DNA from: Syntrophaceae bacterium UBA6109
GTDB lineage: Bacteria > Desulfobacterota > Syntrophia > Syntrophales > UBA6109
Assembly (NCBI GenBank): GCA_002428445.1
Contig: DIWJ01000085.1
Coordinates: 83,038-100,596 of the forward strand
Direction of reading: 5' to 3'
Length of the DNA: 17,559 nucleotides
Positions 2,975-17,559 of this stretch are shown here, one piece after another; position 1 is the stretch's first letter; every line of letters starts with the position of its first letter. Both the position numbers and the translations under genes were made by a program. Under the pieces are notes generated by a model. It made no database searches. It had not been told where the DNA came from and saw nothing but the letters and a program-made list of their open reading frames with translations.

Positions 2975-3008
2975 AATCGGATCTTCGCGCGACTGAAGAT
3001 CTCCGATT
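2975..3008. repeat. Imperfect 12-bp hairpin
   Basis: AATCGG plus ATCTTC (2975-2986) pairs with GAAGAT plus CCGATT (2995-3008), with a 2-nt CT bulge and an 8-nt loop. It lies in the 335-nt gap between the pilin operon end and the start of the Lys-rich gene, both on the minus strand. It could be a transcript-end structure or an upstream control site; nothing distinguishes the two. Confidence 0.4.
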
Positions 3009-3089
3009 CCTGAAAATTTCAGTTGTGTAAATGGGCCTTCATTCTTCTTGCAATTATTCCAAGCGCAGGTGGTTTTCCGCCCTTAAATT

Positions 3090-3183: not shown

Positions 3184-3202
3184 AATGCGCTCGCTGCCGG
3201 AT

Positions 3203-4618: not shown

Positions 4619-4682
4619 TTTATCTTTCCGTCCCTGCAATGAACTGCGGTCGCAATGTGAATTCTCTTTTCATCGATCATGT

Positions 4683-5198
4683 TCAGGGCGCGACAAGCGA
4701 GACATCGAAAGAGGGCGCAACCCGGGCGTTGAATGAGGCGGGCGTATTTTCCGCTCCCGTCAATACCAGATCGATCCCGATGATCCGCGATGCCGCCGAC
4801 CAGGTTGTCTGTGCAGCTCCGCTGTAGCTGTCATAATAGGCGAGTGAAAAACCGCTGACCTGATCCGTCAGGACGATGCCGTCGAGCAGAAGATTGGCGC
4901 CGGACCGGGATATCGTATGATCTGCCGCCACCGCATCTCTGTACGACGTGAATGTGATCTGTGTGCCGTTCGTGGAAGCGACATAAACCTTCTTCACGTT
5001 GTTCAGTTCCTTGACCATCCGTGCAATGGCAACCTGTCCCTTCAGCAGGGTGTCGGCGTTCTTCTGTGCAAAGACAAAACTGTTGACCATGTGGTAACTG
5101 GACAGGCCGATGACCGCCGTCACAATCCCGACCAGGAAAAGCGATACGATGATTTCAAGGAGCGTAAAGCCCCGCTTGTGGAATATGCCTCTGTTCAT
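4683..5198 (-). CDS. Prepilin-like protein (PilW/MshO/PulJ type)
   Basis: 171 residues from ATG 5198. MNRGIFHKRG10-FTLLE15 is a class III signal peptide: cleavage after G10, methylated F11, E15 in position +5, then a hydrophobic helix to ~30. The body (ADTLLKGQVAIARMVKELNNVKKVYVASTNGTQITFTSYRD) resembles PilW/MshO/GspJ minor pilins, where a helix is followed by a strand-rich globular part. Processing by the PilD peptidase is expected from the family. It starts 7 nt after the previous gene's stop. It is somewhat short for PilW, closer to a GspJ- or MshO-like pseudopilin. Confidence 0.8.
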   Translation of the reverse strand: MNRGIFHKRGFTLLEIIVSLFLVGIVTAVIGLSSYHMVNSFVFAQKNADTLLKGQVAIARMVKELNNVKKVYVASTNGTQITFTSYRDAVAADHTISRSGANLLLDGIVLTDQVSGFSLAYYDSYSGAAQTTWSAASRIIGIDLVLTGAENTPASFNARVAPSFDVSLVAP

Positions 5199-5205
5199 AA
5201 TCCCC

Positions 5206-5625
5206 TTATTGAATGAGCGTGAGCAGTATGGACAGCGTTTCGCCCAGATCGTTTTTAATGGTCACCTTCAGTATATTTTGAGGATCGACACCGACGACAA
5301 TCGGCGCTTCAGCATCGCCGACAAATTTGATGAAGTCGTTATACACGACCGTATATGCGCCATAGCCGGAGGTTGGCGGATTGCCGATCTTTGTCTTGAT
5401 CCCGGCGAGATTCGTCTTGTCCGAATTGTAGTCCGTCAGGATATTCTCCATGACCTGCTGCAGTGCGAAGGCCTTGGTCGCCTGGTGCAAGGGCTGGGAG
5501 CTCCTGATCAGCGACGTATTCGAATAGGTGAACATCATCGCGCCCAGGATCGCCGCGGCAACGATCACGATAACGGCCTCAATAAGGGTGAATCCCCCGT
5601 CATGTCGTCTGCTCGGCAGCCTCAT
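5206..5625 (-). CDS. Prepilin-like protein (MshD/GspI type)
   Basis: 139 residues. MRLPSRRHDGG11-FTLIE16-AVIVIVAAAILGAMMF gives a clear prepilin peptidase site and transmembrane helix. The helix continues into SLIRSSQPLHQATKAFALQQVMENILTDYNSDKTNL, like the QQxxExxL region of MshD/GspI. The globular part ends with PQNILKVTIKNDLGETLSILLTLIQ. The ATG overlaps the upstream stop by 4 nt (ATGA), so translation is probably coupled. Second gene of the four-gene pilin operon. Confidence 0.8.
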   Translation of the reverse strand: MRLPSRRHDGGFTLIEAVIVIVAAAILGAMMFTYSNTSLIRSSQPLHQATKAFALQQVMENILTDYNSDKTNLAGIKTKIGNPPTSGYGAYTVVYNDFIKFVGDAEAPIVVGVDPQNILKVTIKNDLGETLSILLTLIQ

Positions 5626-6128
5626 GGAATAAATCCTGTATTCCGTGTAACCGTAATGGTCTTCGTAGAGACACCATCGGTTATTTCAATGGTCGTTTCG
5701 CCGTCCAGGGCGGCCCCTGACGCGTCAACGGGGACGCCCCACACGTTGTATGTGACGGTTCCCGCCGTAACAGAAATGCCGCTCGGCAGATTGTGCGTCG
5801 GCGAGTCTTGACCGGGGAAATTATGCGTCGTGGTAACACCCTCTTCCGTTTTCCGCAAAGTGTAGGAGTTGCCGGAAAATAATACTCCCCATGTGGTATC
5901 CGTATAGCTGGATCTCTTATCCGCATCAGACAAGGCGCGAAACTGCGCATAACGGATGTTCGCTTTCAATATCTCCGTCTCGGCGGCGATATCGTAATAG
6001 GTCTTGGAGGCGATGCGGGATGTCGCCACGACACCGACGACGGCGATGACGAAAATGACGGCGATCACTTCCAGTACCGTAAATCCGTCTCGCCGTTTTT
6101 CGTAATGGTGAACTTTCATCTCCGTCAT
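5622..6128 (-). CDS. Prepilin-like protein (FimT/GspH/MshC type)
   Basis: 168 residues from ATG 6128; a second ATG at 6119 (MKVHH) is an alternative start, and neither has a strong ribosome site. YEKRRDG15-FTVLE20-VIAVIFVIAVVGVVATSR is a class III signal with methylation and +5 Glu positions intact. After the helix come EILKANIRYAQFRALSDADKRSSYTDTTWGVLFSGNSYTL and a beta-rich C-terminus, the usual GspH/FimT layout. First gene of the operon. The order FimT-like, GspI-like, PilW-like, PilX-like fits mshC-mshD-mshO-mshP or a PilY1-less type IV minor-pilin set. Pilus assembly ATPase and secretin genes are not in the window. Confidence 0.8.
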   Translation of the reverse strand: MTEMKVHHYEKRRDGFTVLEVIAVIFVIAVVGVVATSRIASKTYYDIAAETEILKANIRYAQFRALSDADKRSSYTDTTWGVLFSGNSYTLRKTEEGVTTTHNFPGQDSPTHNLPSGISVTAGTVTYNVWGVPVDASGAALDGETTIEITDGVSTKTITVTRNTGFIP

Positions 6129-6480
6129 ATTCGGGTCCGATCGTGGAGCTCTTTCGGCTGTGCACTTCAGGCCGGACTTCCCGCTGTCAGGGCGCCCGGA
6201 TCGGGACTCTTTCCCGGGCCGATTCTATCGGAAAGCGACATGTAAGTGTCTGTAATAATATCCATCTTTCACGCAAAAGGGAAGGACGAATCTGAAAGGA
6301 AACGGCCTCATCCTGCGTCAGCGAAGAGACGAAAAGCGGCCGCGCCGGCTGCTGCCGATTGCGAATGACGGCCGTCGGATCCGCTGCGGCGAAACACGAC
6401 TTGAAAACCTCGGCCTTTTTAGGCTAAAGACATTACGCAAATGCAGATCAAAAAAGCCGCTTCGTGAAAAGGAGTTCTCC
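6129..6480. other. 352-nt divergent intergenic region
   Basis: This gap separates the minus-strand pilin operon from pepA and must hold promoters for both. An AT-rich patch at 6252-6262 (GTAATAATATC) offers TATTAT on the minus strand and TAATAAT on the plus strand, but no convincing -35 is correctly spaced. I saw no sigma54 -24/-12 pair. No small gene or RNA is recognised here. Confidence 0.4.
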
Positions 6481-7986
6481 GTGAAAACAAGAGTTCTGAA
6501 AGGCACCCTTCCCGACCCCGCCTCCCACCGTTGTCTCGTCGTTCCCATCTATGAAGGAGGGCCGCTCTCCGGGACGGCGCAGCGCACGGACCAATCGTCC
6601 GGGGGCTGGATCTCCGAAGTGCTGCGCAGCCGCGAATTCGAGGGCAAGCACCTTCAGCTCGAACTGCTGCACACGGGCAGTTCCGACTCGGGCCGGAGAG
6701 TGGTCCTGGTCGGCCTGGGAAAGCGCGGCGACTTCGACCTCGACCGCGTGCGTGGCGCCTATGCAAAGGCGGCACAGCTTCTTCGCTCGTCGAATGTCCT
6801 GTCGTTTTCGACAGCCCTCGACTTCGGCCCGCATTCCGCGTCCATCGGGGACCTCACCGAAGCAGCCGTGGAAGGGGCGATCCTGGGCAGTTACCAGTTC
6901 ACACCGTACAAGACGGTGCACAAGGAGGAAATCCGCCATCTCCGCGAGATGACGATCGTCGTGGAAAGCCTGCAGATCCCCGCCGTTCGAACGGCGGCGG
7001 CGAACGCCGAGATCCTCTGCCGCGCCGTTTCCCTCGCCCGGGACATGGTATCGTCGCCGGCCAATGAGATGACGCCCAGCGACATGGCCGAGCGTGCGGT
7101 TCTTGCGGCCAAGGGAAGGCCGATCGCCGTCAAGGTGTTCAACGAGCAGAAAATGGAAAAGCTCGGCATGAACGCCCTTCTGGGCGTTGCCTGCGGGAGC
7201 AAACAACCTCCCCGTTTCATCATCCTCGAATACCGGGGCGGCAGGAAGAACGACAAGCCTCTCGTCCTGGTCGGCAAGGGCCTTACCTTTGACAGCGGCG
7301 GCATCTCTCTGAAGCCGGCCGAGAAGATGGACGAGATGAAATCGGATATGTCCGGCGGCGCCGCCGTCATCTGCGCGGTTATGGCCGCCGCCGATCTGAA
7401 GCTGCCGGTGAACCTCGTCGGCCTCGTCCCGGCTACCGAGAACATGCCCAGCGGGCGTGCCCTGAAGCCCGGCGACATCCTGAAATCCCTCTCCGGCCAG
7501 ACGATCGAGGTCGTGAATACCGACGCGGAGGGAAGACTGATCCTGGCCGACGCCTTGACGTACGCCGGGCGGTACAAACCGGCAGCCATCATCGACCTGG
7601 CCACCTTGACCGGCGCCTGCGTCGTCGCCCTCGGCGACCATGTCGCCGGCCTGCTGGGAACGGATGACGCCCTCAAGGGAAGGATCCGCAAGGCAGCCGA
7701 GTTCACGGGAGAGAAGGTCTGGGAACTTCCGTTATGGGACGAGTATGACGAACAGATCAAGAGCGACATCGCCGACGTCAAGAACGCCGGCGGCCGATCC
7801 GCCGGCACGATCACGGCAGCCGCTTTCCTGAGGAAATTTGTCGGCGACTTCCCCTGGGCGCATCTCGACATCGCCGGCCCTGCCTGGCTGGGCAAGGACA
7901 GGCCCTATATCCCCAAGGGGGCTTCGGGCGTGGGTGTCCGGCTGCTGATTCGGCTGCTGCGGACGTGGAACGGAGCGGCCTGCTGA
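6481..7986 (+). CDS. pepA: Leucyl aminopeptidase (M17, PepA)
   Basis: 501 residues, nearly the same length as the E. coli enzyme. The GTG start at 6481 has AAAAGGAG 6 nt upstream. The C-terminal catalytic domain carries LVGKGLTFDSGGISLKP and the family signature NTDAEGRL (346-353). Expected metal ligands are K266, D271, D289, D348 and E350; catalytic K278 and R352 are also present, all four residues below E. coli numbering. The enzyme is a hexameric cytosolic exopeptidase with two metal ions that removes N-terminal residues; in E. coli PepA is also a DNA-binding accessory factor. The gene stands alone, divergent from the pilins and convergent with the amidase operon. Confidence 0.97.
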   Translation: MKTRVLKGTLPDPASHRCLVVPIYEGGPLSGTAQRTDQSSGGWISEVLRSREFEGKHLQLELLHTGSSDSGRRVVLVGLGKRGDFDLDRVRGAYAKAAQLLRSSNVLSFSTALDFGPHSASIGDLTEAAVEGAILGSYQFTPYKTVHKEEIRHLREMTIVVESLQIPAVRTAAANAEILCRAVSLARDMVSSPANEMTPSDMAERAVLAAKGRPIAVKVFNEQKMEKLGMNALLGVACGSKQPPRFIILEYRGGRKNDKPLVLVGKGLTFDSGGISLKPAEKMDEMKSDMSGGAAVICAVMAAADLKLPVNLVGLVPATENMPSGRALKPGDILKSLSGQTIEVVNTDAEGRLILADALTYAGRYKPAAIIDLATLTGACVVALGDHVAGLLGTDDALKGRIRKAAEFTGEKVWELPLWDEYDEQIKSDIADVKNAGGRSAGTITAAAFLRKFVGDFPWAHLDIAGPAWLGKDRPYIPKGASGVGVRLLIRLLRTWNGAAC

Positions 7987-8003
7987 GAAGAATTCCGCGA
8001 ATT

Positions 8004-8471
8004 TCAGAACTCGATGCGGAGATTGACCTGCGGCTCGAAGATCTTTCCCATCGTCTCCAGGGAATCCCGATAGGACTGCGTCTGGAGCGACGATGACAGG
8101 GAACGGAACTTTTCCAGGGCGCGCTCCTCCTCTCCCCGCCGCGAGGGATCGATCCTGGGTTCCGTGTTCATGGCGCGGGAAAAGGTGAAGCTCAGATACG
8201 GCATCAGGGTTCCTCTGTTGCCGTTCTTCCTCTCCCCGGCCGGCGCCGCCGCCGGTTCATCAAGGCCCGTCAAGAAGGATTCGCGCGATTCGCCGCCGAC
8301 GGTGAGAGAATAGGATTCCGGCGAAAGAGACGGCACGCCCGGCGCGAGCTCGGCCAGGACATGGAAAGGACCGCCTTCTGTAGAGCCGCCGTTGGCGGCC
8401 GCGGACAGTCCGGTCCGGCAGAACAGCGGGAAGATCAAAACCAGGAAAAGGATGCTTCGGTACAGACGCAC
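8004..8471 (-). CDS. Small secreted protein of unknown function
   Basis: 155 residues from GTG 8471, with AAGGAGAGG upstream. Residues 1-~24 are a signal peptide (RSILFLVLIFPLFCRTGLSAAA). The rest is low in recognisable motifs: a Pro/Ser/Gly-rich first half, then LMPYLSFTFSRAMNTEPRIDP, an acidic helix and a terminal SLETMGKIFEPQVNLRIEF. The alternating hydrophobic end with a final Phe recalls envelope proteins, but that is weak. It starts 12 nt after the amidase stop and is probably cotranscribed with it, which hints at an envelope role. I do not recognise the family. Confidence 0.7.
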   Translation of the reverse strand: MRLYRSILFLVLIFPLFCRTGLSAAANGGSTEGGPFHVLAELAPGVPSLSPESYSLTVGGESRESFLTGLDEPAAAPAGERKNGNRGTLMPYLSFTFSRAMNTEPRIDPSRRGEEERALEKFRSLSSSLQTQSYRDSLETMGKIFEPQVNLRIEF

Positions 8472-8483
8472 GGATCCCTCTCC

Positions 8484-10289
8484 TTAAGAACGGACGGCGC
8501 CGCGGGAAGGAACCCTGATCGTCTGCTGAACCATCAGGGCATCGGATCGTTTCATGCCGTTCAAGGCGCGAATCTCTTTTACCGTCGTGCCGTATTTCTT
8601 GGCGATCGACGCAAGACTCTCCCCTTTTCGGACCTTATGATATGAATAAGCGGCTGTCTTCATCTTTGCCGCCTTATCCCCGACCGGAGCGGGACGGGGG
8701 GAGCTTCCTCCCGGAGCGACTTCTTCTCCCGAAAGCGGGATCTTCAGCTTGCGGTGGATGTAGAGAGGCCGCCGCGGGTCGATGCGGTTCCTCTCGGCGA
8801 TTTGCGCCACGCTGACTCCGTAACGAAGGGCGATTTTTTCGAGGGAATCCCCTCTCTTGACGACGTAGATCTCGAAAGTCTTGCCGGCGCCGCCCGGTTT
8901 TCCCCCGGCCGTCAAAGGCTTTGCCCCCGCGTCCGCCTTCGTCTTGGGTCCGGTTCTGCCGTTCTTCCGCATACCGCCTGCATCGGCTGCCGCCGCTGTT
9001 TCCGGACGTGCGGTATCGACGGCCGGACCAGGTTCGACCGCGTTCGACGGCTCCGGTCTGGGCGCCTCCGGGGAATGTGCCGCTTTGGCGGTCTCCTGGG
9101 GAATCGGTGCCCGGGCCTGCACCGCGGGCGCCTCGGCCGTCTCCGGCGGCAGGAATTCCTCGATGGCTGATGCCAGGGCCTGCGCCAGCTTTCGCTGATG
9201 ACGCTTGCTCCGGAGCAGCTTTTCTTCGTCGGGGTTGGATATGAATGCGATCTCAACCAGCGCGGAGGGGATTTCCGGCAGTTTCAGCACAAGGAACGGC
9301 GCCTCCTGGATGCGGCGGAACTTCACGTTCCCGACGTCGTCCAGGTGCTGGAGAAGAATCTGCCCGTAGCTCTTCGAGCGGTTGATGGAATTCGTCTGAA
9401 ACATGTTGAGCACGATCGGATCGGATTCGTATGCGCTCTCCCCCGCAGGGGAGCCGCCGATGACGTCGGCAAGGTTTTCGTCCTTCGCCAGCAGGCGGGC
9501 CGCCTCGCTGCTTGCGCCCCGCAGCGAGAGCGTATAGACGGAACTTCCTCTGACGCGGCGGCTGCGCGAGGCATCCGCGTGGATGCTGACGAAGAGATCC
9601 GCATTGTTGTCCCGGGCGGTCTGCATGCGTTTTCTGAACGAGACGTAGTAATCTCCGTCGCGCGTCAGGAGGGCGCGATATCCCGGCTTCTTGTTCAGAT
9701 TTTCCCGCGTCATCTTCGCGATGCTGAGGACCACGTCCTTTTCCTGCGTGCCGCCGCGGCCGACGGCCCCGGGCGCCTCGCCCCCGTGTCCGGGATCGAG
9801 GACGATGATTCTCCTTCTGGCCGGCGCCGCGGCCGGCTCGGGCTCGACAGCTTCCTTCTTTGCCGCCTCCGGCAGGAGGATATCGACAACCAAGCGATGG
9901 GGCTTGTCCTGGATTCGGCTCAGGGAGAAGATGTTGGCGCCCGTGTGCCCGGAAAGCTCCAGTTCGATGGTCAGCTGGTTTTCAGCAGTATTCAAAAGGA
10001 TGTTCCGGATCCCGGGTTTGTCGATGGCCATGACGCCGGGAAGCGTCGTCGACAGAGACGCATCGCGGATGACAATCCGCAGTTTCGCCTCTTCCCTCTC
10101 CACGGTGTAGGACGGCTCTTCGGTGGCATCGAATACGACACGGGTATGGTCGGGAGCCGCCCAGTGGCGGACATTGAAGATCTCGGTACCGGCTGAGGCG
10201 GGAAATGCCCCGAGCAGCAACAGCAGGAGGATGCCTCCTGCGAGGGAAATACCGCGCCATCGTTCAAGAAATCCGTTTATCGCTTGCAT
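8484..10289 (-). CDS. N-acetylmuramoyl-L-alanine amidase (AMIN + amidase_3 + two LysM)
   Basis: 601 residues. Signal peptide 1-33 (LLLLLLGAFPASA). An AMIN domain (~37-137) is involved in envelope or septal targeting in AmiC-type enzymes. The amidase_3 domain (~160-380) has zinc ligands H168 (LDPGHGG), E183 (QEKD) and H237 (SIHADAS), with catalytic E346 (SALVEIAFISN). A Pro/Ala/Glu-rich linker (~380-470) leads to LysM 1 (~473-518) and LysM 2 (~549-594), which bind peptidoglycan. The enzyme cleaves the amide between MurNAc and L-Ala, typically for daughter-cell separation. The two C-terminal LysM repeats are an addition to the E. coli AmiC plan. No strong Shine-Dalgarno precedes the ATG at 10289. 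The small secreted protein follows in the same operon. Confidence 0.95.
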   Translation of the reverse strand: MQAINGFLERWRGISLAGGILLLLLLGAFPASAGTEIFNVRHWAAPDHTRVVFDATEEPSYTVEREEAKLRIVIRDASLSTTLPGVMAIDKPGIRNILLNTAENQLTIELELSGHTGANIFSLSRIQDKPHRLVVDILLPEAAKKEAVEPEPAAAPARRRIIVLDPGHGGEAPGAVGRGGTQEKDVVLSIAKMTRENLNKKPGYRALLTRDGDYYVSFRKRMQTARDNNADLFVSIHADASRSRRVRGSSVYTLSLRGASSEAARLLAKDENLADVIGGSPAGESAYESDPIVLNMFQTNSINRSKSYGQILLQHLDDVGNVKFRRIQEAPFLVLKLPEIPSALVEIAFISNPDEEKLLRSKRHQRKLAQALASAIEEFLPPETAEAPAVQARAPIPQETAKAAHSPEAPRPEPSNAVEPGPAVDTARPETAAAADAGGMRKNGRTGPKTKADAGAKPLTAGGKPGGAGKTFEIYVVKRGDSLEKIALRYGVSVAQIAERNRIDPRRPLYIHRKLKIPLSGEEVAPGGSSPRPAPVGDKAAKMKTAAYSYHKVRKGESLASIAKKYGTTVKEIRALNGMKRSDALMVQQTIRVPSRGAVRS

Positions 10290-10300
10290 AAGACGCCCGT

Positions 10301-10329
10301 ACTCTAGCAGATCGTTTCCGCCGATTCAA
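10301..10329 (-). promoter_or_regulatory. Candidate promoter for the amidase operon
   Basis: On the minus strand, TTGAAT (10329-10324) and TAGAGT (10306-10301) are separated by 17 bp, each matching 4 of 6 consensus bases. A start site about 7 nt beyond the -10 would leave only ~5 nt before the ATG at 10289. That would agree with the missing Shine-Dalgarno site, but it is speculative. Confidence 0.35.
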
Positions 10330-10416
10330 TCAACAGTTGAATCCGGACTTGAAAAGATATTGACATCCTCCTTTTCAAATGACATGAATCGCCATGACTT
10401 TCGTGAGCCGCCTGAG

Positions 10417-11310
10417 ATGAAGATACGAGACCTGTTCGTCCGAAAAACCCCGACACTCTCCTTCGAGGTCTTTCCCCCCGCCCGGGAAGGCAACCTGGAG
10501 AGCCTGTACGAAACCATCCGGGAGCTGGGCGATTGGAAGCCGGACTTCATTTCCGTCACCTACGGCGCCGGCGGCAGCACGCGCGACAAGACGATCGAGA
10601 TCGCCTCGAAGGTCAAGAAGGATTTCCATCACGAGGTGCTGGCCCACCTGACCTGCGTGCAGTCCACCCGGGACGACATCGCCGGAATCCTCGATGCGCT
10701 GAAAAACGAAACCATCGGGAACATCCTTGCCCTGCGCGGCGATCCTCCGGACGGTACGGGGGCTTTCCGCCGTGTCGAGGGCGGTTTCGGGTACGCGAAC
10801 GAGCTGGTGGAATTCATCCGGTCCAGGGGCGACTTCTGCGTGGGTGTGGCCGGCTATCCCGAGGGCCATTGCGAAGCCCCCTCCCTGGAAGTCGACATCC
10901 GCAACCTGAAAAAGAAAATCGACGCCGGCGCGGACTTCATCATCACACAGCTGTTTTTCGACAACGACGACTTCTATCGCTTCCGCGAGAGGTCGCTGAA
11001 AAACGGCATCCGCGTTCCCCTCATCCCCGGAATCTTCCCGATTCTTAACTACAAACAGAGCCAGCGGATCGGTTCCCTGTGCGCGCCGAAACTTCCCTCC
11101 GCACTGCGGGAGAAGATCGAGAAGTACCGTGACAAGCCGGAAGAGATCGAGAAATACGGAATCGAACATGCCGCCCGGCAGTCGGAGCACCTGCTCCGGA
11201 ACGAAGCCGCCGGCATTCATATCTACAGCATGAACCGCAGCGGTCCGGTCCGCCGGATTCTCGCCGAACTCCCGTTCGACCCGGCGCGCCGGAAGAGCAA
11301 AAAGGATTGA
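10417..11310 (+). CDS. metF: 5,10-methylenetetrahydrofolate reductase (MetF)
   Basis: 297 residues from ATG 10417, matching the E. coli length (296). An in-frame ATG at 10384 would add 11 residues atypical of the family. LSFE17VFPP holds the catalytic Glu (E28 in E. coli). DFISVTYGAGGSTRDKT and the RGD109PP loop (D120 in E. coli) line the FAD/folate site. ITQLFFDNDDFYRF and PLIPGIFPILNYKQ are further family motifs. The enzyme reduces methylene-THF to methyl-THF for methionine synthesis or, in acetogens and syntrophs, for the methyl branch of the Wood-Ljungdahl pathway. No metV partner is next to it, so the methionine role cannot be separated from the C1 role. A TTGACA at 10360-10365 may be its -35, but no good -10 follows. 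Confidence 0.95.
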   Translation: MKIRDLFVRKTPTLSFEVFPPAREGNLESLYETIRELGDWKPDFISVTYGAGGSTRDKTIEIASKVKKDFHHEVLAHLTCVQSTRDDIAGILDALKNETIGNILALRGDPPDGTGAFRRVEGGFGYANELVEFIRSRGDFCVGVAGYPEGHCEAPSLEVDIRNLKKKIDAGADFIITQLFFDNDDFYRFRERSLKNGIRVPLIPGIFPILNYKQSQRIGSLCAPKLPSALREKIEKYRDKPEEIEKYGIEHAARQSEHLLRNEAAGIHIYSMNRSGPVRRILAELPFDPARRKSKKD

Positions 11311-11396: not shown

Positions 11397-11435
11397 GGGC
11401 GATTAGCTCAGAAGGATAGAGCGTTGGTCTCCGGA
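11397..11435 (+). pseudogene. 5' half of tRNA-Arg(CCG), cut in the anticodon loop
   Basis: The segment fits tRNA numbering exactly: acceptor strand GGGCGAT (11397-11403), TA, D stem GCTC/GAGC around AGAAGGATA, G26, anticodon 5' stem TTGGT (11424-11428) and loop CTCCGGA (11429-11435) with anticodon CCG. What follows (TGCGATCC) cannot pair with TTGGT. No T arm, 3' acceptor strand or CCA is found downstream in the window. This is a broken tRNA gene. tRNA anticodon loops are common integration sites, and accessory genes begin just after it. Confidence 0.8.
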
Positions 11436-11445
11436 TGCGATCCGG
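11431..11445. repeat. Palindrome at the tRNA break: possible attachment site
   Basis: CCGGAT (11431-11436), GCG, ATCCGG (11440-11445) is a perfect 6-bp inverted repeat with a 3-nt centre, starting inside the tRNA anticodon loop. Short inverted arms around a central spacer are typical of tyrosine recombinase core sites. No second copy of the full 15 bp was found in the window; only CTCCGGAT recurs, at 16559. Confidence 0.4.
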
Positions 11446-11751
11446 GCTGACGCTCTTTCTGTTTGAAATTGCTTACAAATTACCGATTTTATTGCAAATC
11501 CCCTCCCCTTCTCTTGTCACAAATCATCACAGAAAAACACAGAAAAGCGGCCTTTTCGCCTGCGGAGTCACACGGATTTTCACACTACCCTTGGACTCAC
11601 AATCCAGAGGGAGGAGAAGAAGAAAATAAACATTTCCCTTGATGCTGCCGATATGCATAGCCGTGGTGGGGTGTCGATTCCCCTTGACAAGCGGTCAAGG
11701 ACTGATTTACAAGTCAATCAAAAAGCAACCCGTTTTTGTTGGTGGCGTGAA
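11436..11751. other. Non-coding left flank of the accessory region
   Basis: About 315 nt between the tRNA fragment and the first accessory gene. Composition is mixed and more AT-rich than the backbone. I see no credible gene. The only notable element is the promoter/palindrome at 11682-11713. Confidence 0.4.
11682..11713 (+). promoter_or_regulatory. Candidate promoter covered by a palindromic operator
   Basis: CCTTGAC (11682-11688) and GTCAAGG (11694-11700) form a perfect 7-bp inverted repeat with a 5-nt spacer. The left arm contains the TTGACA -35 (11684-11689). TACAAG (11708-11713) is a possible -10 at 18 bp. Overlap of the -35 with a palindrome is the usual layout for repressor control. 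It sits ~40 nt upstream of the 72-aa gene. Confidence 0.45.
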
Positions 11752-11970
11752 ATGAGCAGGACATTTTTTTTATTTGCGAGACCAAGTTTGATCGGAGGCG
11801 CAGCGCGGCTTTTTGATCTTGCCGGGACATTGAACACCTACAATGTGTCCGCGACAGGAGATCTAGCGGATACTCGTGCATTTCTTGAGGATTGGAAAGC
11901 CATCGGTGACGACATGAGGGCCGTTCTTGCGGCTTATAAAAAAGAGCAAGAATGCAGGGCAAATGGCTAG
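11752..11970 (+). CDS. 72-aa protein upstream of DUF2335 gene
   Basis: 72 residues from ATG 11752; the frame is open further upstream, but the N-terminus MSRTFFLFARPSLIGGAARLFDLAGTLNTYN looks like a natural start. The rest, ATGDLADTRAFLEDWKAIGDDMRAVLAAYKKEQ, is helical and acidic. It has no signal peptide and no catalytic motif. It overlaps the next gene by 8 nt, so the two are translationally coupled and probably work together. I recall small proteins of this kind next to DUF2335 genes in other bacteria, but could not check. Ribosome site is weak (GGTGG). Confidence 0.65.
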   Translation: MSRTFFLFARPSLIGGAARLFDLAGTLNTYNVSATGDLADTRAFLEDWKAIGDDMRAVLAAYKKEQECRANG

Positions 11971-12394
11971 AAGAGGGAAAAAGGGAAATCGCAGCCCGAT
12001 GATCCCAGGAGCCCCACGAAATTCGTCTATTACAAAAATACAAGCCGCATCCTTCCAAGGTCCACTCCCTCCCCCACAAATTCTCAGCCACTACGATGAA
12101 ATAGTCCCCGGATCAGCCGAGAGAATTATTTCTCTTTGGGAACGCCAAGTGCAGCATCGGCAAGAACTCGAAAAGAAGGCCATAGGCTCAGACATAAGGC
12201 AAAGTTATTTTGGGGCAGCTCTCGGGTTCATCATAGCAATAGCAGCCATAGGCGCCGGCACATTCTTGGCTTATAATGGTCAACCAACGGAGGGTCTTGC
12301 TGCTATTATAACTGCCCTTGTAGGACTTGTCGGTGTGTACGGCTGGGGCAGCTATCAGCGTCGGAAAGAAAGAAGCCAAAAAGTTAATCAATGA
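11963..12394 (+). CDS. DUF2335 family predicted membrane protein
   Basis: 143 residues from ATG 11963 (MARRGKKG). The motif GPLPPPQILSHYDEIVPGSAERIISLWERQVQHRQELE (~44-81) is the DUF2335 hallmark. It is followed by two membrane helices, SYFGAALGFIIAIAAIGAGTFLAYNG and GLAAIITALVGLVGVYGWGSY, and a basic tail RRKERSQK. The function of DUF2335 is not known; members occur in mobile regions and phage-like islands. Coupled to the upstream 72-aa gene and followed at once by a strong terminator, so the pair is a self-contained cassette. A toxin-antitoxin or defence role is possible but not shown. Confidence 0.8.
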   Translation: MARRGKKGNRSPMIPGAPRNSSITKIQAASFQGPLPPPQILSHYDEIVPGSAERIISLWERQVQHRQELEKKAIGSDIRQSYFGAALGFIIAIAAIGAGTFLAYNGQPTEGLAAIITALVGLVGVYGWGSYQRRKERSQKVNQ

Positions 12395-12417
12395 TTTCTC
12401 GCCGCCTTCCCCCCCCT

Positions 12418-12438
12418 ACCCGCTTCGGCGGGTTTTTT
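12418..12438 (+). terminator. Rho-independent terminator after DUF2335 gene
   Basis: ACCCGC (12418-12423), TTCG tetraloop, GCGGGT (12428-12433), then a T6 run ending at 12438. It lies 24 nt after the stop codon. Confidence 0.92.
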
Positions 12439-12473
12439 GTGGCCCCTCATACTCGTCAATTTTCACAGTACCC

Positions 12474-12911
12474 CTATATTGGGATTTTATTGAATTCTAT
12501 TTGATCAACCTTCTCACAAAATAATGAAAGCGAATCATTAAAATATTGTCTTCTATTTTCACGCGCATGTGTCTCGACTCCATCGCGATTGAATTTATGT
12601 CTCAAAATCAGAGCTCTCCGATTCTTGTCGGTTTCACTTTGCTGATCTTCCAAAAACCACTTGACGAACCCAAGCTCTTTGGTCGCGCAAATATGGAATT
12701 CTATACAAACATGAAGATCAGCGAAACTGAATTTTACTGAGTTTTCCAATACTTGAATATCGCGGATCAAATTGAGGTCGAAATCCCCGGTTTCTTCAAC
12801 AATTTCCTTCTTGGCGAACTCAAGCCAATCCTTTGTTGCTGTAATCCACGTGCTGCGAGTATATGCAAGCCGTCTAAATTTTTCCGCATATTCAATAATC
12901 ACCCCACCCAT
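12474..12911 (-). CDS. 145-aa protein of unknown function
   Basis: ATG 12911 is preceded by AGGAGG at 8-nt spacing in an AT-rich leader, strong support for a real gene. The protein is soluble, with no signal or membrane helix: EYAEKFRRLAYTRSTWITATKDWLEFAKKEIVEETGDFDLNLIRDIQVLENSVKFSFADLHVCIEFHICATKELGFVKWFLEDQQ. This reads as a helix followed by an alternating beta region and a charged C-terminal helix. No family is recognised. It is transcribed away from the RHH regulator gene with a 151-nt shared control region. Its AT-rich codon use differs from the backbone, which suggests acquisition. Confidence 0.7.
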   Translation of the reverse strand: MGGVIIEYAEKFRRLAYTRSTWITATKDWLEFAKKEIVEETGDFDLNLIRDIQVLENSVKFSFADLHVCIEFHICATKELGFVKWFLEDQQSETDKNRRALILRHKFNRDGVETHARENRRQYFNDSLSLFCEKVDQIEFNKIPI

Positions 12912-12943
12912 AGTGCCACCTCCTTTTTTTTACTCAATTCGCA

Positions 12944-13034
12944 TTTATATCTATTCGATTTCACATCGAAATGCAAGTTTATCCAAAATTCTTGTATTTT
13001 CCATCTTGACATTTCTTACATTTGTATATATTGT
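12944..13034. promoter_or_regulatory. Divergent promoters sharing an inverted-repeat operator
   Basis: Plus strand: TTGACA (13006-13011) with TATATT (13027-13032, 15 bp) or TATTGT (13029-13034, 17 bp) drives the RHH gene. Minus strand: TATAAA (12949-12944) is a good -10 for the 145-aa gene, but its -35 is weak. Between them TTCGAT (12954-12959) and ATCGAA (12965-12970) form a perfect inverted repeat with a 5-nt spacer. The repeat covers the minus promoter spacer and lies upstream of the plus -35, so one bound regulator could control both genes. Confidence 0.6.
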
Positions 13035-13062
13035 ATGAGCCATCAAAGCGGAGGTTGAAGCT

Positions 13063-13374
13063 ATGGCTAGGAAATCGTTTCAAATCGTAATGAATGAAGA
13101 GATTCAGCGCAGAATTAAATCAAGGTCGAGCCTTCTTGGTATGAACATTGGTGATTTCATCGAAATGATGGTTTCTTCCTTGGAATCAAGGCTTCGCTAT
13201 GCCTACAGGGTCACAGGAAATAACCTTGACCCGGACCTCGATGAATTGCTTATCCGTAATATTTTGGCGGCGGATCAGACTGACGATCCAGCTGCCGAAT
13301 TGAACCGTAGTCTGCAGTCCATTAAAGAAGACGCAGAAGATACGGAGTGGACACCAGAAGTAAAACGTCCATAA
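13063..13374 (+). CDS. Ribbon-helix-helix DNA-binding regulator
   Basis: 103 residues from ATG 13063, with GGAGG 8 nt upstream. Residues ~4-42 fit an Arc/MetJ-type ribbon-helix-helix: strand KSFQIVMN, helix EEIQRRIKSRSSLLG, turn MN, helix IGDFIEMMVSSLESRL. The C-terminal ~55 residues are acidic (DPDLDELLIRN, then KEDAEDTEWTPE) and could bind a ligand or partner. It opens the phage-like block and faces the 145-aa gene across a shared operator, so it probably acts as the local repressor. A long hairpin terminator ends its transcript. Confidence 0.65.
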   Translation: MARKSFQIVMNEEIQRRIKSRSSLLGMNIGDFIEMMVSSLESRLRYAYRVTGNNLDPDLDELLIRNILAADQTDDPAAELNRSLQSIKEDAEDTEWTPEVKRP

Positions 13375-13427
13375 ATCAGAAAACAATGGGCTCTCCGGAA
13401 GGTCGGCCAACCTGACGGGGACGCAAG

Positions 13428-13487
13428 AAAAGAGAAAGCGGGCAGTGAAGGTGCCTTCACCATCTTCATTTGCCCGCTTTTTCTTTT
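13428..13487 (+). terminator. Long nested-hairpin terminator
   Basis: A stem of about 17 bp (13428-13444 with 13471-13487, core AAAGCGGGCA/TGCCCGCTTT, one G-T pair) ends in a T-rich strand. Inside its loop is a second perfect hairpin, GTGAAG-GTGC-CTTCAC (13445-13460). It separates the RHH gene from the replication operon and could terminate or attenuate read-through. Confidence 0.75.
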
Positions 13488-13505
13488 GCCCTGGAGTGAA
13501 ACGGA

Positions 13506-13703
13506 ATGACGATCTGGAACATCAAGAAGGCTGCCGAATACCTTGAACGAAGCCCCGGGGCGATCCGGAACCTGGTACTGCGGCGAAAGATACCCTTCCG
13601 CAAGGTGGGCGGCCGGCTGGTGTTCATCGAGGAAGAGATCCGGACGTGGATCGAGAAGGCGCCGGGCATGACCCTTGATGACTGCCTGAAGGGGGACCGC
13701 TGA
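13506..13703 (+). CDS. Excisionase-type helix-turn-helix protein
   Basis: 65 residues from ATG 13506 (GGAG at 13493-13496). The sequence TIWNIKKAAEYLERSPGAIRNLVLRRKIPFRKVGGRLVFIEEEIRTWIEK is the MerR-like HTH_17 (excisionase) fold: a helix-turn-helix on residues ~5-28, a wing on ~29-45 and a closing helix. Such proteins direct phage or ICE excision or act as small regulators. No integrase is present in the window, so the regulatory role may be the likelier one. Its TGA overlaps the next ATG (TGATG), so translation is coupled to the replication gene. Confidence 0.8.
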   Translation: MTIWNIKKAAEYLERSPGAIRNLVLRRKIPFRKVGGRLVFIEEEIRTWIEKAPGMTLDDCLKGDR

Positions 13704-14347
13704 TGGCGAGCCCGCAAGCTGAAAACGGACACATTGATGTCGCGAACGAGATCGTGGAGGCCTTGGCGCGGACGAATCTCTCCGCGTATCAGTCGCGGGT
13801 CTTGTGGGCGCTGTGGCGGAAGACATGGGGGTGGCATAAGAAAGAAGACTGGATCCCCTTGAGCCAGTTCGAAGAAATGACCAGCATTTCGAAAAGCCAT
13901 ATCTCAAGAACAATCACGGAATTGAAGACCAGGAACATGGTTACCAATCCGGGCAATGAAGGTTACCAATCCGGGCTACCTCAAAAGAAACTACTCAAAA
14001 GAAACTCTTCAAAAGAAATTTCTCAAAAGAAAGAAATGCGCGTGCGCTTCGAAGCCTTTTGGACATCCTATCCGAAAAAGAAATCGATAGGCCGGGCAGA
14101 ACGCGCCTTTGGGAAGATGAATCCGGACGAGCAGCTTATGGAGGCCATTATGGCCGGGATTGAGCGGGCCAAGACTTCGGAAGACTGGCTGAAAGACGGC
14201 GGGAAGTTCATCCCCTACCCTGCCACATGGCTGAATGCGCGTGGATGGGAAGACGAACCGACCGAATTGCACCCCTTGGCCGGCGCCGTATCCGAGACAA
14301 CGCGGCGGAACATGGCCGTGCTGGAATCATGGAGCCCGCCGTCATGA
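13703..14347 (+). CDS. Phage replication protein O-like initiator
   Basis: 214 residues. Residues ~8-80 match the winged-helix N-terminal domain of lambda O-type proteins (GHIDVANEIVEALARTNLSAYQSRVLWALWRKTWGWHKKEDWIPLSQFEEMTSISKSHISRTITELKTRNMV), which binds origin iterons. A Lys/Ser/Gln-rich linker (~82-111) is encoded by the repeat array. Residues ~115-195 (FEAFWTSYPKKKSIGRAERAFGKMNP, then GKFIPYPATWLNARGWEDEP) are the C-terminal module common in phage initiators. The family role is to open the origin and recruit the helicase loader. Start overlaps the HTH gene by 1 nt; stop overlaps the DUF6475 gene as ATGA. Confidence 0.88.
   Translation: MASPQAENGHIDVANEIVEALARTNLSAYQSRVLWALWRKTWGWHKKEDWIPLSQFEEMTSISKSHISRTITELKTRNMVTNPGNEGYQSGLPQKKLLKRNSSKEISQKKEMRVRFEAFWTSYPKKKSIGRAERAFGKMNPDEQLMEAIMAGIERAKTSEDWLKDGGKFIPYPATWLNARGWEDEPTELHPLAGAVSETTRRNMAVLESWSPPS
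13939..13976. repeat. Two perfect 16-bp direct repeats (origin part 1)
   Basis: GGTTACCAATCCGGGC occurs at 13939-13954 and again at 13961-13976, a 22-bp period, inside the replication gene and directly before the 14-bp iteron array. Since 22 is not a multiple of three, the two copies encode different peptides. The conservation is therefore at DNA level. Confidence 0.85.
13981..14032. repeat. Iteron array: four 10-bp repeats at exact 14-bp spacing (putative replication origin)
   Basis: TCAAAAGAAA begins at 13981, 13995, 14009 and 14023 with no mismatch; the 4-nt spacers vary. A 14-bp period shifts the reading frame each time, so this is a DNA signal and not a protein repeat. The location, an A-rich segment in the middle of an O-type initiator gene, is the same as lambda's origin. 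The encoded initiator is the likely binder. Confidence 0.85.
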
Positions 14348-14904
14348 CGAATCAGCGAATATTCAAAGAGTACATGACGGCACTCTCTGAGATCCACGGC
14401 AAGGAACTGAGCGCCCTGCTCAATAGCCTGTACTGGAAGACCCTGGAACCGTTCACGGATGCCGAGTGCGAACGGGCCTTCAAGGAATTGATCTTCTCCG
14501 CGAAGTTCTTTCCCAAGCCCGTCGAATTCCTGGAGGTGCTGCAGGGGAAACGGGAAGACCTGGGCGCCCGTGCATGGATCAAGGTTGTTGAGGCGGTCCG
14601 CCGCTGCGGAAACTGGCAGAGCGTCGAATTTGACGATCCCGTGATTCACAGCGTTTTCAAGTTTTGGGGCGGCTGGGGTGTCACTCGGGATTGGAAGGAC
14701 AAGGACCTGAAATGGATCCAAAAGGAATTTGAGCGGCTTTACTCGATCTTCCTGGGGGAAAACCGCGAACACCCGAAGTATCTGCCAGGGGATAGCGAGA
14801 TCCAGAACGCCGCGGAAGGATACGAAAGAGCGCCGGAGATCGTGAGGATCGGCAGCGACGCCGGCGAAAAGAAGCAAATTACCAACGAAGCGAGGCAGGA
14901 ATGA
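14344..14904 (+). CDS. DUF6475 protein, putative helicase-loader-position gene
   Basis: 186 residues from ATG 14344, which overlaps the initiator's stop (ATGA). An upstream in-frame start at 14227 lies inside that gene and is unlikely. The sequence FKEYMTALSEIHGKELSALLNSLYWKTLEPFTDAECERAFKELIFSAKFFPKPVEFLEVL, then ARAWIKVVEAVRRCG, FDDPVIHSVFKFWGGW and WIQKEFERLYSIFLG, fits the DUF6475 family of phage genomes. The family's function is not established. Its place right after an O-type gene is where phages carry a helicase loader (lambda P), so a replication role is inferred from position. Stop overlaps the next ATG. Confidence 0.75.
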   Translation: MTNQRIFKEYMTALSEIHGKELSALLNSLYWKTLEPFTDAECERAFKELIFSAKFFPKPVEFLEVLQGKREDLGARAWIKVVEAVRRCGNWQSVEFDDPVIHSVFKFWGGWGVTRDWKDKDLKWIQKEFERLYSIFLGENREHPKYLPGDSEIQNAAEGYERAPEIVRIGSDAGEKKQITNEARQE

Positions 14905-15089
14905 GAAGAAAGCATCATCAATGCGGGCACCCGGGATGCCACAAGATGGCCATCAGAAATTCTGATTTCTGCTGGGACCACGAAAACACAAAGCGGACGA
15001 CCTACGCGGCGCGCGCGGTCGGATGGTGCCCACGAAATACAGAAAGTCCGCGAAACCGCCAACAGGAGAGACCGGGAGAATATAGGTAA
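14901..15089 (+). CDS. Small zinc-finger-like protein
   Basis: 62 residues, starting as ATGA on the upstream stop. C8-G-H-P-G-C13 followed by C24-W-D-H27 is a plausible CCCH/CCHH zinc knuckle, of a kind common in small phage proteins between replication and structural genes. The C-terminal half (TYAARAVGWCPRNTESPRNRQQERPGEYR) is basic and unstructured. In the neighbouring frame, an open stretch runs on to 15204, so the 3' end of this gene might be frameshifted. Function unknown. Confidence 0.55.
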   Translation: MRRKHHQCGHPGCHKMAIRNSDFCWDHENTKRTTYAARAVGWCPRNTESPRNRQQERPGEYR

Positions 15090-15114
15090 GCTCACAGTCC
15101 CATGGGGCGAAACA

Positions 15115-15204
15115 ATGACGTCCACCATGGAATATATGCTGGAGAGATTTTTCACGATCACCGCCCCATGGCGGCCAGATCACAGAAAGGAGAATTCACC
15201 ATGA
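15115..15204 (+). CDS. Possible 29-codon leader ORF coupled to the capsid gene
   Basis: ATG 15115 reads MTSTMEYMLERFFTITAPWR and ends at a TGA (15202-15204) that overlaps the capsid ATG at 15201 as ATGA. The same overlap is used by the two preceding gene pairs. The frame stays open for more than 30 codons upstream of the ATG, so it could also be the tail of a decayed gene. The ribosome site (GGGGCG) is poor. Confidence 0.3.
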   Translation: MTSTMEYMLERFFTITAPWRPDHRKENSP

Positions 15205-16484
15205 CAGAACGCGAAAGGCAATTGAGGAGCAAGCTTGCAAAAGCGGTCGAGGATGCGCGGGCGATTCTTGACAAGGCCGAGAAGGAAAGAAGAGCGCTTC
15301 GCACCGACGAAGAGGAACAGTACAGCCGCACCAACGACGAAATCGACAACCTCAGTCGACAGCTGGAAATCTTCCTGAAGAGCGGTTTGATCGACGATGA
15401 GCGCCGCGATGCCGAAACCAGAAATCTCATTTACGGAAATGAACCCCTGACGCCCGCGGGCCACAATTACCGGGAGAGCAACAACATATGGGAACAGCGC
15501 GATCTCCGTTACGAGGCCCCCAGCCGACGCGAAGCCTTTTCGCGATATCTGCGGCAGGGCGTCAATGCCCTTTCAAGCGAAGAATATCGGGCGCTTCAAG
15601 CCGACTCCGATACTGCAGGCGGCTATCTCGTTCTTCCGATGGCATTGGCCGGAAGAATCATCAAGGCCGTCGACAACGAAGTGTTTATCCGACAGTTCGC
15701 CACCATCTTCCCCGTTCCGGCGAGCGAATCTCTCGGCGCTCCGGCGCTTGACAACGATATGGGCGATCCGACCTGGACTGCCGAGCTCGGAACGGGAGAT
15801 GAAGACAGCACCATGTCTCTCGGGCTGCGACAACTGACGCCCTCCCCGATTGCACGGCGGATCAAGGTCTCAAATAAACTGCTCCGCCTGGCATCCATCA
15901 GCGCCGACAATCTCGTCGCCGACCGCCTCGCCTACAAATTCGGCACCGTGATGGAATACAACTATCTTCTTGGAGATGGCGCCGGGAAGCCCATGGGTGT
16001 TTTCACGGCGGCGCCGGCCGGCATGGGCATCAGTACGTCCCGCGATGTTTCGACTGGGAACACGGCGACGGCCATCACGGCGGACGGGCTGATTGAGGCT
16101 TTCTACAGCCTCAAGGCGCAGTATCGAAAACGCGCAGTCTGGATACTGCACAGGGATGTCGTCAAGAAAATCCGCAAGCTGAAAGACGGCGACGGGAATT
16201 ATATCTGGCAACTCGGGATTGCCAACAACAAGCCAGAAACAATCCTCGGCAGGCCCTACTGTGAAAGCGAATATGCGCCGAATACCTTCACCGCCTCTCA
16301 GTATGTCGGCATCATCGGCGATTTTTCGCACTACTGGATCGCAGACGGACTGCAGCTGACCATCCAGCGCCTTGTTGAACTGTACGCAGCGACAAACCAG
16401 GTCGGCTTCATCGGCCGCGTCGAGTCGGATGGGATGCCGGTCCTGGAAGAGGCCTTCGCCCGCGTGAAGCTGGCCGCGGCTTAA
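15201..16484 (+). CDS. HK97-family phage major capsid protein
   Basis: 427 residues from ATG 15201, with AAAGGAG 8 nt upstream; this start was preferred to the upstream in-frame one at 15102. Residues 1-~75 are a coiled-coil delta/scaffold domain (LRSKLAKAVEDARAILDKAEKERRALRTDEEEQYSRTNDEIDNLSRQLE). The mature domain starts near ALQADSDTAGGYLVLP. It contains the family stretches DRLAYKFGTVMEYNYLLGDGAGKPMGVF, WILHRDVVKKIRKLKDGDGNYIWQ, ILGRPYCESEYAP and GFIGRVESDGMPVLEEAFARVKL. Family members assemble into icosahedral shells, and the delta domain is usually removed by a phage protease. No protease, portal or terminase gene adjoins it. It is the last gene of the block, followed directly by hairpins. 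Confidence 0.93.
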   Translation: MTERERQLRSKLAKAVEDARAILDKAEKERRALRTDEEEQYSRTNDEIDNLSRQLEIFLKSGLIDDERRDAETRNLIYGNEPLTPAGHNYRESNNIWEQRDLRYEAPSRREAFSRYLRQGVNALSSEEYRALQADSDTAGGYLVLPMALAGRIIKAVDNEVFIRQFATIFPVPASESLGAPALDNDMGDPTWTAELGTGDEDSTMSLGLRQLTPSPIARRIKVSNKLLRLASISADNLVADRLAYKFGTVMEYNYLLGDGAGKPMGVFTAAPAGMGISTSRDVSTGNTATAITADGLIEAFYSLKAQYRKRAVWILHRDVVKKIRKLKDGDGNYIWQLGIANNKPETILGRPYCESEYAPNTFTASQYVGIIGDFSHYWIADGLQLTIQRLVELYAATNQVGFIGRVESDGMPVLEEAFARVKLAAA

Positions 16485-16521
16485 AAAACGTGAATCCGGG
16501 TTCTGAGTCCCGGTGAAACCA

Positions 16522-16593
16522 GGGCGGGCTCGTTCACCCGCCCGCACCTCCGAAACAGCTCCGGATCGGTTCGCCGGCCGGTCCGGAGCTTTC
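16522..16593 (+). terminator. Double hairpin terminator after the capsid gene
   Basis: GGGCGGG (16522-16528) pairs with CCCGCCC (16537-16543). Next, AGCTCCGGA (16557-16565) pairs with TCCGGAGCT (16582-16590), with more pairs inside, followed by TTTC. The T tract is short, but two stable stems within 75 nt indicate that the operon ends here. Confidence 0.7.
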
Positions 16594-16755
16594 AAATACG
16601 CCGGGCCTCCGGGGGGGCTCGAAATCTATGGAAAGCCATAATTCCCGAAACCACCCGGTATCTCATGCGCAGATTATTTTTCCTGTATGAATTTTATCAA
16701 AAAAATCAAAGGCGCATAATAACCTGAATATACGACTGATTTAACCATTTTGGCG

Positions 16756-16788
16756 TTTGAACTTTGAACATTGTTTGAACATTTGAAA
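16756..16788. repeat. TTTGAAC direct repeats
   Basis: TTTGAAC occurs at 16756, 16763 and 16774, and TTTGAAA at 16782: four near-identical heptamers in 33 bp. They lie in an AT-rich stretch just before the structured GC-rich segment. They could be binding sites for a regulator or recombinase. Confidence 0.5.
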
Positions 16789-16795
16789 ATCAAAC

Positions 16796-17119
16796 GGTCC
16801 CGGGGCACGGGAACCACGAAGAGGGGACATGAATTGACTCCGCCATGAGGCGGAAGACATAGCGCAAGCCCCGCCAACGGGATGTAGGCGAGGAAACGTC
16901 CCCGCGGCGACGATGGAGTAACAGGGGGCTGGTTATTTGAAATCGAACGCCGGGCCTTCCTAACCCGGAATAGGCCCCTGGCCGGTCAACCTGGGGCCGT
17001 GGCAAACCCGGCCGAAGAAATCGAGCGATTGTGTCGACGATGGGCGGCGGCCGGGTGCCATTCTTTGAAAACTCATTTTAGGTGCGCTAACGGCCAGCCT
17101 GAAGTCGGCTGTAAATCAC
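16796..17119 (+). ncRNA. Candidate structured RNA of unknown class
   Basis: The segment folds on inspection into many stems. GGTCCCG/CGGGAACC closes 16796-16815. GGGGAC (16823-16828) pairs with GTCCCC (16898-16903) around two inner hairpins, CCGCC-ATGA-GGCGG (16840-16853) and CGCC/GGCG (16872-16890). CCGGG/CCCGG spans 16950-16968, GGCCCC/GGGGCC 16973-16998, CCCGGCC/GGCCGGG 17007-17055 and CAGCC/GGCTG 17095-17111. The loop GGCCGG (16980-16985) can also pair with CCGGCC (17008-17013), which would make a pseudoknot. No convincing ORF covers the region. The plus strand is inferred: the sequence ends just before GGAGGG and a short ORF from ATG 17149 (20 codons, MKQHVRTRGGRVPTNRKMVI). An IscB/IsrB omega RNA, part of a group II intron or a phage-associated giant RNA are possibilities; I could not assign a family. 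Confidence 0.45.
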
Positions 17120-17234
17120 GCAAGAAAACCAAATCCGACAACGGAGGGATGAAACAGCATGTCCGCACACGGGGCGGTAGGGTGCCAACAAACCGAAAGA
17201 TGGTTATTTAAATTAAGAATGCAGATTATCTTCT

Positions 17235-17527
17235 CTAGCCTATATATGGTTTAAATATTTCTAATGCTTCTTTTCCAATTAGGATTCTATTGCAATGACC
17301 GGCAAAAGAGTGAATCTCTATGAGTTCAGCTATTATAGCCTGTATATCTTCAGGATTTTCAGGTTTAGATAAACTTTCTGCACGTTGTTTATAGACTTGT
17401 AGGAGCTCAAGTTCTTGATTGAACTCATCGGAATATTTTTTAGTTCATCATATGTTTGCTTCAGGTAAAAAGGCAGACCATTTATGTAGACAACAATGAA
17501 TTTATTCACAAACACCGAAAAGTGCAT
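17235..17527 (-). pseudogene. Small AT-rich gene split by a frameshift at an A6 run
   Basis: From ATG 17527 the frame reads MHFSVFVNKFIVVYINGLPFYLKQTYDELK, then at the A6 run (T6 at 17436-17441 on the plus strand) it goes on into low-complexity sequence. In the -1 frame, the same strand gives a far more protein-like stretch: YSDEFNQELELLQVYKQRAESLSKPENPEDIQ, then IAELIEIHSFAGHCNRILIGKEALEIFKPYIG, ending at TAG (17237-17235). A lost A or a -1 ribosomal slip at A-AAA-AAT would join them into a ~97-aa helical protein. No family is recognised and there is no good ribosome site. Low GC sets it apart from everything else in the window. Confidence 0.5.
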
Positions 17528-17539
17528 TTTATCATCTAA

Positions 17540-17559
17540 CAGGCCGTTGAAAAACGGGC
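17540..17559. mobile_element. Possible insertion-sequence terminal inverted repeat
   Basis: The last 20 bases contain GGCCGTTGAAAAACGGGC, similar to the GGCTGTTGAAAAA ends I associate with several DDE-type insertion sequences. It is cut by the window end, so neither a transposase nor a partner repeat can be seen. Confidence 0.25.

Follow-up and report, generated by a model that had tools for sequence, protein, structure and literature searches.

A phage capsid gene that closes a replication operon, with no packaging or tail genes beside it, raises the question of whether such a locus is a mobile element in its own right or the remains of an ordinary prophage. This arrangement was found in a stretch of 17,559 nucleotides (nt) from the Syntrophaceae bacterium UBA6109 (contig DIWJ01000085.1), here called the window, which ends 1,075 bases past the stop codon of the capsid gene. 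A first-pass annotation had described a tight block of regulator, replication and capsid genes lacking terminase, portal, protease, tail and integrase genes, and had offered two explanations, a phage satellite that supplies its own shell or a deletion remnant. The lack of these genes was confirmed within the window, and given where the window ends it can be claimed only there. Relatives of both modules, replication and capsid, sit in ordinary phage gene clusters. The locus is probably a cryptic prophage that has lost, through deletions, the genes flanking a capsid gene which itself stayed intact. The features of the window are collected in Table 1.

Table 1 Features of the window and the evidence for each assignment
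Feature	Position	Strand	Evidence or remark
Chromosomal genes: formate dehydrogenase end, Tim44-like protein, cyclic-nucleotide-binding protein, prepilin-type protein, leucyl aminopeptidase, amidase, metF	1-11310		
5' half of tRNA-Arg(CCG) gene, cut off directly after the anticodon loop	11397..11435	+	probable left border of the element, formed on integration
DUF2335 membrane protein, phage "moron" type	11927..12394	+	PF10097 E 3.8e-16; phrog_3996 E 1.4e-33
Hypothetical protein, divergent from the next gene	12474..12911	-	open reading frame (ORF); no family match
103-amino acid (aa) ORF, "RHH regulator" of the first-pass annotation, identity unproven	13063..13374	+	ORF; no family match
Long hairpin, A-rich 5' flank and T-rich 3' flank	13428..13487	.	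17-nt arms 94% complementary
HTH_17 (excisionase-like) DNA-binding protein	13506..13703	+	PF12728 E 2.5e-10; phrog_66 E 3.8e-5
Phage replication protein O (repO)	13703..14347	+	PF04492 (Phage_rep_O) E 1.4e-23; TIGR01610 54.6 bits, cut-off 45.5
Two iterons, 16 bp, 22 bp apart, within repO	13939..13976	+	repeat search
A-rich 14-bp repeats x3.8 within repO, probable unwinding element	13980..14032	+	repeat search
DUF6475 protein	14344..14904	+	PF20081 E 1.4e-13; phrog_10105 E 4.4e-39
62-aa zinc-knuckle ORF	14901..15089	+	PF24906 match below cut-off (21.1 vs 27 bits)
29-aa ORF, stop overlapping the capsid start (ATGA)	15115..15204	+	no similarity beyond shuffled controls
HK97 major capsid protein, complete	15201..16484	+	PF05065 (Phage_capsid) E 2.5e-56; TIGR01554 positions 2-384 of 385
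Two G+C-rich hairpins, no T-tract	16522..16590 (16522-16543, 16557-16590)	+	fold z -4.3

Capsid gene and its relatives

The longest frame of the capsid gene begins at 15102 (460 aa). The ATG at 15201 (427 aa) was adopted as the start, since a GA-rich stretch resembling a ribosome site precedes it and the resulting length agrees with that of the relatives. The TIGR01554 match covers residues 6-423 of these 427, and the identification as an HK97 capsid protein, already made in the first-pass annotation, is borne out by both families listed in Table 1. The nearest solved structures are 6tba and 6tb9 (E 2e-33) of Rcc01687, which we take to be the capsid protein of the Rhodobacter gene transfer agent.

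The gene neighbourhoods of capsid relatives were compared in IMG/VR, using the best 80 of 441 (L148-L227) and portal, TerL and cement profiles built by iterated search within the loci; each count was taken over the loci with enough flank. A portal gene lies upstream of the capsid gene in 54 of 56 relatives (the exceptions being L186 and L194), and TerL in 24 of 26 (all except L178 and L182). Downstream, 68 of 72 have a match to the cement profile no further than 800 bases away; it is missing in L154, L162, L197 and L226. RepO or DUF6475 was found within the flanks examined in none of the 80. A genome scan with the capsid protein returned 24 loci with a best identity of 45%, and five actinobacterial genome loci (L014-L018) carry a full head cluster around the capsid relative. 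The capsid is 44% identical to that of Streptomyces phage Chymera, in which, unlike in the window, the head cluster is complete, in the order TerS-TerL-portal-protease-capsid-cement-connectors.

Replication operon and its relatives

The genes from HTH_17 to the zinc-knuckle ORF overlap, by 1 base between HTH_17 (a helix-turn-helix, HTH, protein) and RepO and by 4 bases at each of the RepO/DUF6475 and DUF6475/zinc-knuckle joins. The "tight block" of the first-pass annotation holds for this part; its first member, the 103-aa ORF, is cut off from HTH_17 by the hairpin at 13428-13487. The excisionase-type HTH, the O-type initiator with its origin and DUF6475 were correctly recognised there, as the family matches, iterons and A-rich array of Table 1 indicate. 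In phage lambda, the gene for O contains iterons and an A-rich stretch, and P follows directly. The window shares this layout, with iterons and A-rich stretch inside the O gene and a probable P-like protein directly behind. It differs from lambda in its distant O (about 25% identity to lambdoid O proteins), in having DUF6475 as putative loader and in having two iterons only.

The structure model of the DUF6475 protein gave lambda P and SPP1 G39P as best matches, and in 28 of 42 mapped loci of relatives (13, and 29 found in a second search) DUF6475 stands directly behind a RepO-profile match. Judging from the model, DUF6475 is probably a helicase loader of the lambda-P/G39P type. The family is not named in the literature searched (PMC), and this functional lead is a useful by-product of the analysis.

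For ten of the DUF6475 loci, the ORFs were listed and families searched. Nine of these loci continue with terminase or portal genes (L119, L120, L122, L123, L124, L127, L133, L134 and L135); in the tenth, L121, where one ORF was scanned, neither was seen. The order of DUF6475, zinc knuckle and capsid occurs in none of the 42. A capsid-profile match is present in one locus, L120, there behind HNH and TerL, the full order being RepO-DUF6475-HNH-TerL-protein with C-terminal capsid domain-portal. As far as gene order goes, L120 shows such a replication operon running directly into a head cluster. By analogy, an L120-like order would turn into the arrangement of the window if what lies between the capsid gene and the gene following DUF6475 were deleted. 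The DUF6475 of L120 is just 54% identical to that of the window, and L120 is therefore to be seen as a model and not as an ancestor. The capsid-domain frame of L120 (2964-4694) encodes 577 aa, with the capsid domain in the C-terminal half only; lying between TerL and portal, it is perhaps a protease-capsid fusion.

The nearest DUF6475 protein is 92% identical and comes from a Syntrophales metagenome-assembled genome (MAG), in a cluster of 5 sequences on 7 contigs (the window copy may be among the 5); a further close sibling is at 87% identity, and another named relative, from a Syntrophaceae MAG, is 64% identical. The nearest capsid protein other than the window's own is 68% identical. Because of this difference, the replication and capsid modules seem, from sequence identity, not to travel together at that closeness. 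A DUF6475 scan of three genomes reached via the loci was negative in all three, and also in all 14 controls.

The first-pass annotation had held that its reading would be refuted by related loci continuing into a normal head/tail cluster, as signs of a simple deletion, or by the absence of a conserved block elsewhere. In the loci reached, this is the picture from both sides: capsid relatives lie in normal head clusters, DUF6475 relatives run on into terminase or portal genes, and the gene order of the block, sought among the relatives on IMG/VR contigs, was seen in neither set. Of its two proposals, the deletion remnant is thus the one supported.

The two-part origin was compared with those of six relatives (L228, L229, L230, L231, L133 and L135), in which the same two parts were found in the same order within repO: repeats of about 18-24 bp, then a ACAAAAGAAACT-like repeat. 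The RepO genes of L119, L121 and L122, also run through Tandem Repeats Finder (TRF), were left out, as their N-termini look different. According to TRF, the relatives contain 3.7-4.8 iteron copies, against the 2 of the window. A strict count by spacing gave 2 (L228), 3 (L135), 4 (L133, L231) and 5 (L229, L230), and again 2 in the window. RepO itself has 214 aa in the window vs 240-279 aa in the six relatives. Taken with the lower iteron count, this shorter RepO looks as if the origin too had lost DNA. An origin of this two-part kind within repO, common to relatives, is a further useful by-product.

Stretch between the two modules

The "zinc finger" of the first-pass annotation was retained as a small zinc-knuckle ORF, the Pfam match of which stays under the cut-off. 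No homologue of the ORF was found, phage searches giving only E 4 or worse. By eye, its Cys/His spacing is the same as that in the N-terminus of the L120 HNH protein, a similarity that is not significant (E 0.16). A search for the Cys/His motif among the loci gave three matches and, besides L120, one is plausible, in L197. From this motif, the ORF is possibly the stump of an HNH gene.

The 99-codon open frame that ends at the capsid start scored no better than shuffles against the loci compared. When ORFs of 118 loci were compared with the window, no remnants of protease or portal genes before the capsid gene, or of cement genes behind it, were found. The best weak match outside the capsid gene and antisense frames (15015-15074, 21 residues, E 0.005) was taken as chance.

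Left border of the element

Positions 1-11310 hold ordinary chromosomal genes, ending with metF, and recognisable phage modules begin at 13506; phage genes are thus found inside a bacterial chromosome. Just behind metF sits the truncated tRNA-Arg(CCG) gene, in which 38 of 39 bases (11397-11435) are identical to the intact tRNA-Arg(CCG) of viral contig L236 (145-221) and the similarity ends directly after the anticodon loop. No tRNA was recognised by ARAGORN anywhere in the window; searches there for the missing 3' half and for another copy of the core gave nothing. Integration by a tyrosine recombinase can leave a tRNA gene broken at the anticodon loop. The broken gene is probably the attachment junction and, given the position of the break, the element probably starts near 11436 and has its other end beyond the window. 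The block of the first-pass annotation would accordingly be only a section of a longer element; its compact look and missing integrase describe the window and not the element as a whole. The DUF2335 gene is likely still within the element.

L236 (145-4372) is a viral contig at the same tRNA gene, which is intact there. Its portal, protease-plus-capsid frame, TerS-like and RusA-like genes point toward the tRNA, and no tail gene was recognised between capsid and tRNA.

Probable history of the locus as a cryptic prophage

The history that would account for the locus begins with a temperate tailed phage whose head cluster was of the HK97 type and whose lambda-type replication operon comprised an HTH gene, an O gene containing the origin and the P-like DUF6475 gene. 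It would have integrated at tRNA-Arg(CCG) of a bacterium that, judging from the names of the DUF6475 relatives, was presumably Syntrophales-like; the broken tRNA is observed, and the putative attachment junction is placed at the break. Judging from the relatives, deletions ahead of the capsid gene, up to the zinc-knuckle ORF, would have taken out terminase, portal and protease, and deletions behind it the cement, connector and tail genes. Given the intact capsid frame, the deletions are most simply taken to be recent. The replication genes would still work as an O-P replicon if transcribed. The capsid protein is probably idle, with no protease, portal or terminase in view.

The locus resembles known cryptic (incomplete) prophages in that some phage modules are kept, packaging and tail genes are missing in view and the site is a tRNA gene. 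It differs from them in that the head cluster in view consists of one intact capsid gene, that replication genes are kept and that the right end lies outside the window. Capsid genes do occur in incomplete prophages: PMC7744054 counts 18 in one data set and 40 in another.

Several observations weigh against decay by deletion. Neither a deletion scar nor an intact sibling of this locus was found, and the frame ahead of the capsid gene shows no likeness to the end of a protease or portal gene. The ATGA overlap gives an operon-like entry into the capsid gene, the frame of which is complete and conserved as well as in the relatives (3 of 123 otherwise invariant positions changed, vs 0-5 in each of 21 relatives). 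The cement profile may have drifted, since its match in L154 lies upstream of the capsid gene, and by the strict spacing count the relative L228 likewise has just two iterons. In addition, incomplete prophages are reported, in the relevant part of PMC7744054, to lose replication, packaging and capsid genes preferentially and to be enriched in integrase genes. Because of that reported loss, a remnant keeping replication and capsid genes has an unusual profile. Finally, the window stops so soon after the capsid gene that packaging genes may exist further on.

Alternative explanations

The last point leads to a larger or rearranged prophage, in which an insertion or a different module order would have placed the terminase, portal, tail and integrase genes beyond 17559. 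It would fit the left junction at 11435 without a right junction within the window, the record of the capsid protein on a 128-kb contig and the portal gene behind the capsid gene in L120. It was nevertheless judged unlikely: in close capsid relatives, portal and TerL lie before the capsid gene and a cement-profile match follows within 800 bases (the counts are given above), whereas in the window 16600-17559 contains no ORF with a family match and no DNA match, in a scan that omitted the minus-strand ORF 17333-17557, cut by the window end. A joining of a phage fragment to the chromosome in assembly is scarcely credible, as the capsid protein is recorded on 2 contigs, the operon overlaps and the composition is even over 13.5-16.5 kb (G+C 0.52-0.59).

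A satellite with its own replicon and major capsid protein only, borrowing portal, protease, terminase and tails from a helper, is one form of the other proposal of the first-pass annotation. An intact replication operon and a capsid gene lie within 3 kb, with overlapping genes, and the capsid is under normal constraint. However, no second case was seen in the IMG/VR loci of either module and no protease or portal in the window, which makes this explanation very unlikely. Capsid-forming phage-inducible chromosomal islands (cf-PICIs) are defined, in the part of PMC10690885 concerned, as encoding capsid, protease, portal, connectors, TerS, TerL and HNH; the capsid-forming satellites described there carry protease, portal and terminase. 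The window is like them in having its own HK97 capsid gene near replication genes and unlike them in lacking terminase, portal, protease and connectors in view, the capsid gene being the only one of the cf-PICI set. No capsid-only satellite turned up in the literature searched. Domestication of the capsid gene, whether into a shell like those of encapsulins or for dominant-negative interference against incoming phages, is highly improbable. The head cluster in view is indeed an intact capsid gene alone, and standalone HK97-fold shells exist as encapsulins (as stated in the passage of PMC8987985 on them). The protein, however, matches phage capsid families over its full length, with no encapsulin family among its Pfam and NCBIfam matches; no defence family was matched, and by eye and family scans, no dedicated cargo test having been made, no cargo-like neighbour was recognised.

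Little credence is likewise given to a minimal satellite or selected remnant in which the O-P replicon accompanies a lone HK97 capsid protein whose subunits co-assemble with those of an infecting phage. If true, co-assembly would divert the helper procapsid to the element's own DNA or poison assembly, as a prokaryotic counterpart of capsid-derived restriction. The locus looks like an ordinary prophage remnant, and it warns against naming a satellite just because, close to a window's edge, a replication operon ends in a capsid gene.

Further features of the window

The terminator hairpins reported directly behind the capsid gene are real as hairpins; they have no T-tract, and the terminator scan, which picked out 14 terminator-like sites, passed them over. 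Hairpins were found behind the capsid stop in 37 of 78 relatives vs 42 of 240 stretches inside capsid genes, so the pair in the window probably belongs to the spacer that naturally follows a capsid gene. Further on, 16785-17215 is a G+C-rich, ORF-poor stretch. A structured RNA there was rejected, since its fold was equalled by 4 of 100 shuffles (z -1.5) and no Rfam family matched at gathering level. Among phages, DNA relatives of 11400-17559 amounted to three records, covering only parts of the capsid and repO genes; in plasmids, none were found for 16485-17559.

The 103-aa ORF had been called a ribbon-helix-helix (RHH) regulator. No match was obtained in Pfam (E up to 10), PHROGs (E up to 1), NCBIfam or PADLOC, and a PDB search returned only DPBB_sym proteins (best E 0.015) and Titin. 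The single-sequence structure model is poor (predicted local distance difference test, pLDDT, 59.7), with two helices after an unresolved start. An RHH fold is thus supported by no library, and is neither shown nor excluded. A promoter-like TTGACA-17-TATTGT lies ahead of the ORF at 13006-13034, in a scan that found 7 such sites vs 5.1 by chance.

Rfam matches near 13430 (E 0.15 and worse) were judged chance matches to the hairpin at 13428-13487. The fold of 13375-13505, which includes this hairpin, reached z -4.7 against shuffles, and its sequence suggests a probable (bidirectional) terminator or antitermination point. Its position, behind the first regulator-like ORF and ahead of the HTH-O-P genes, is that of tR1 in lambda.

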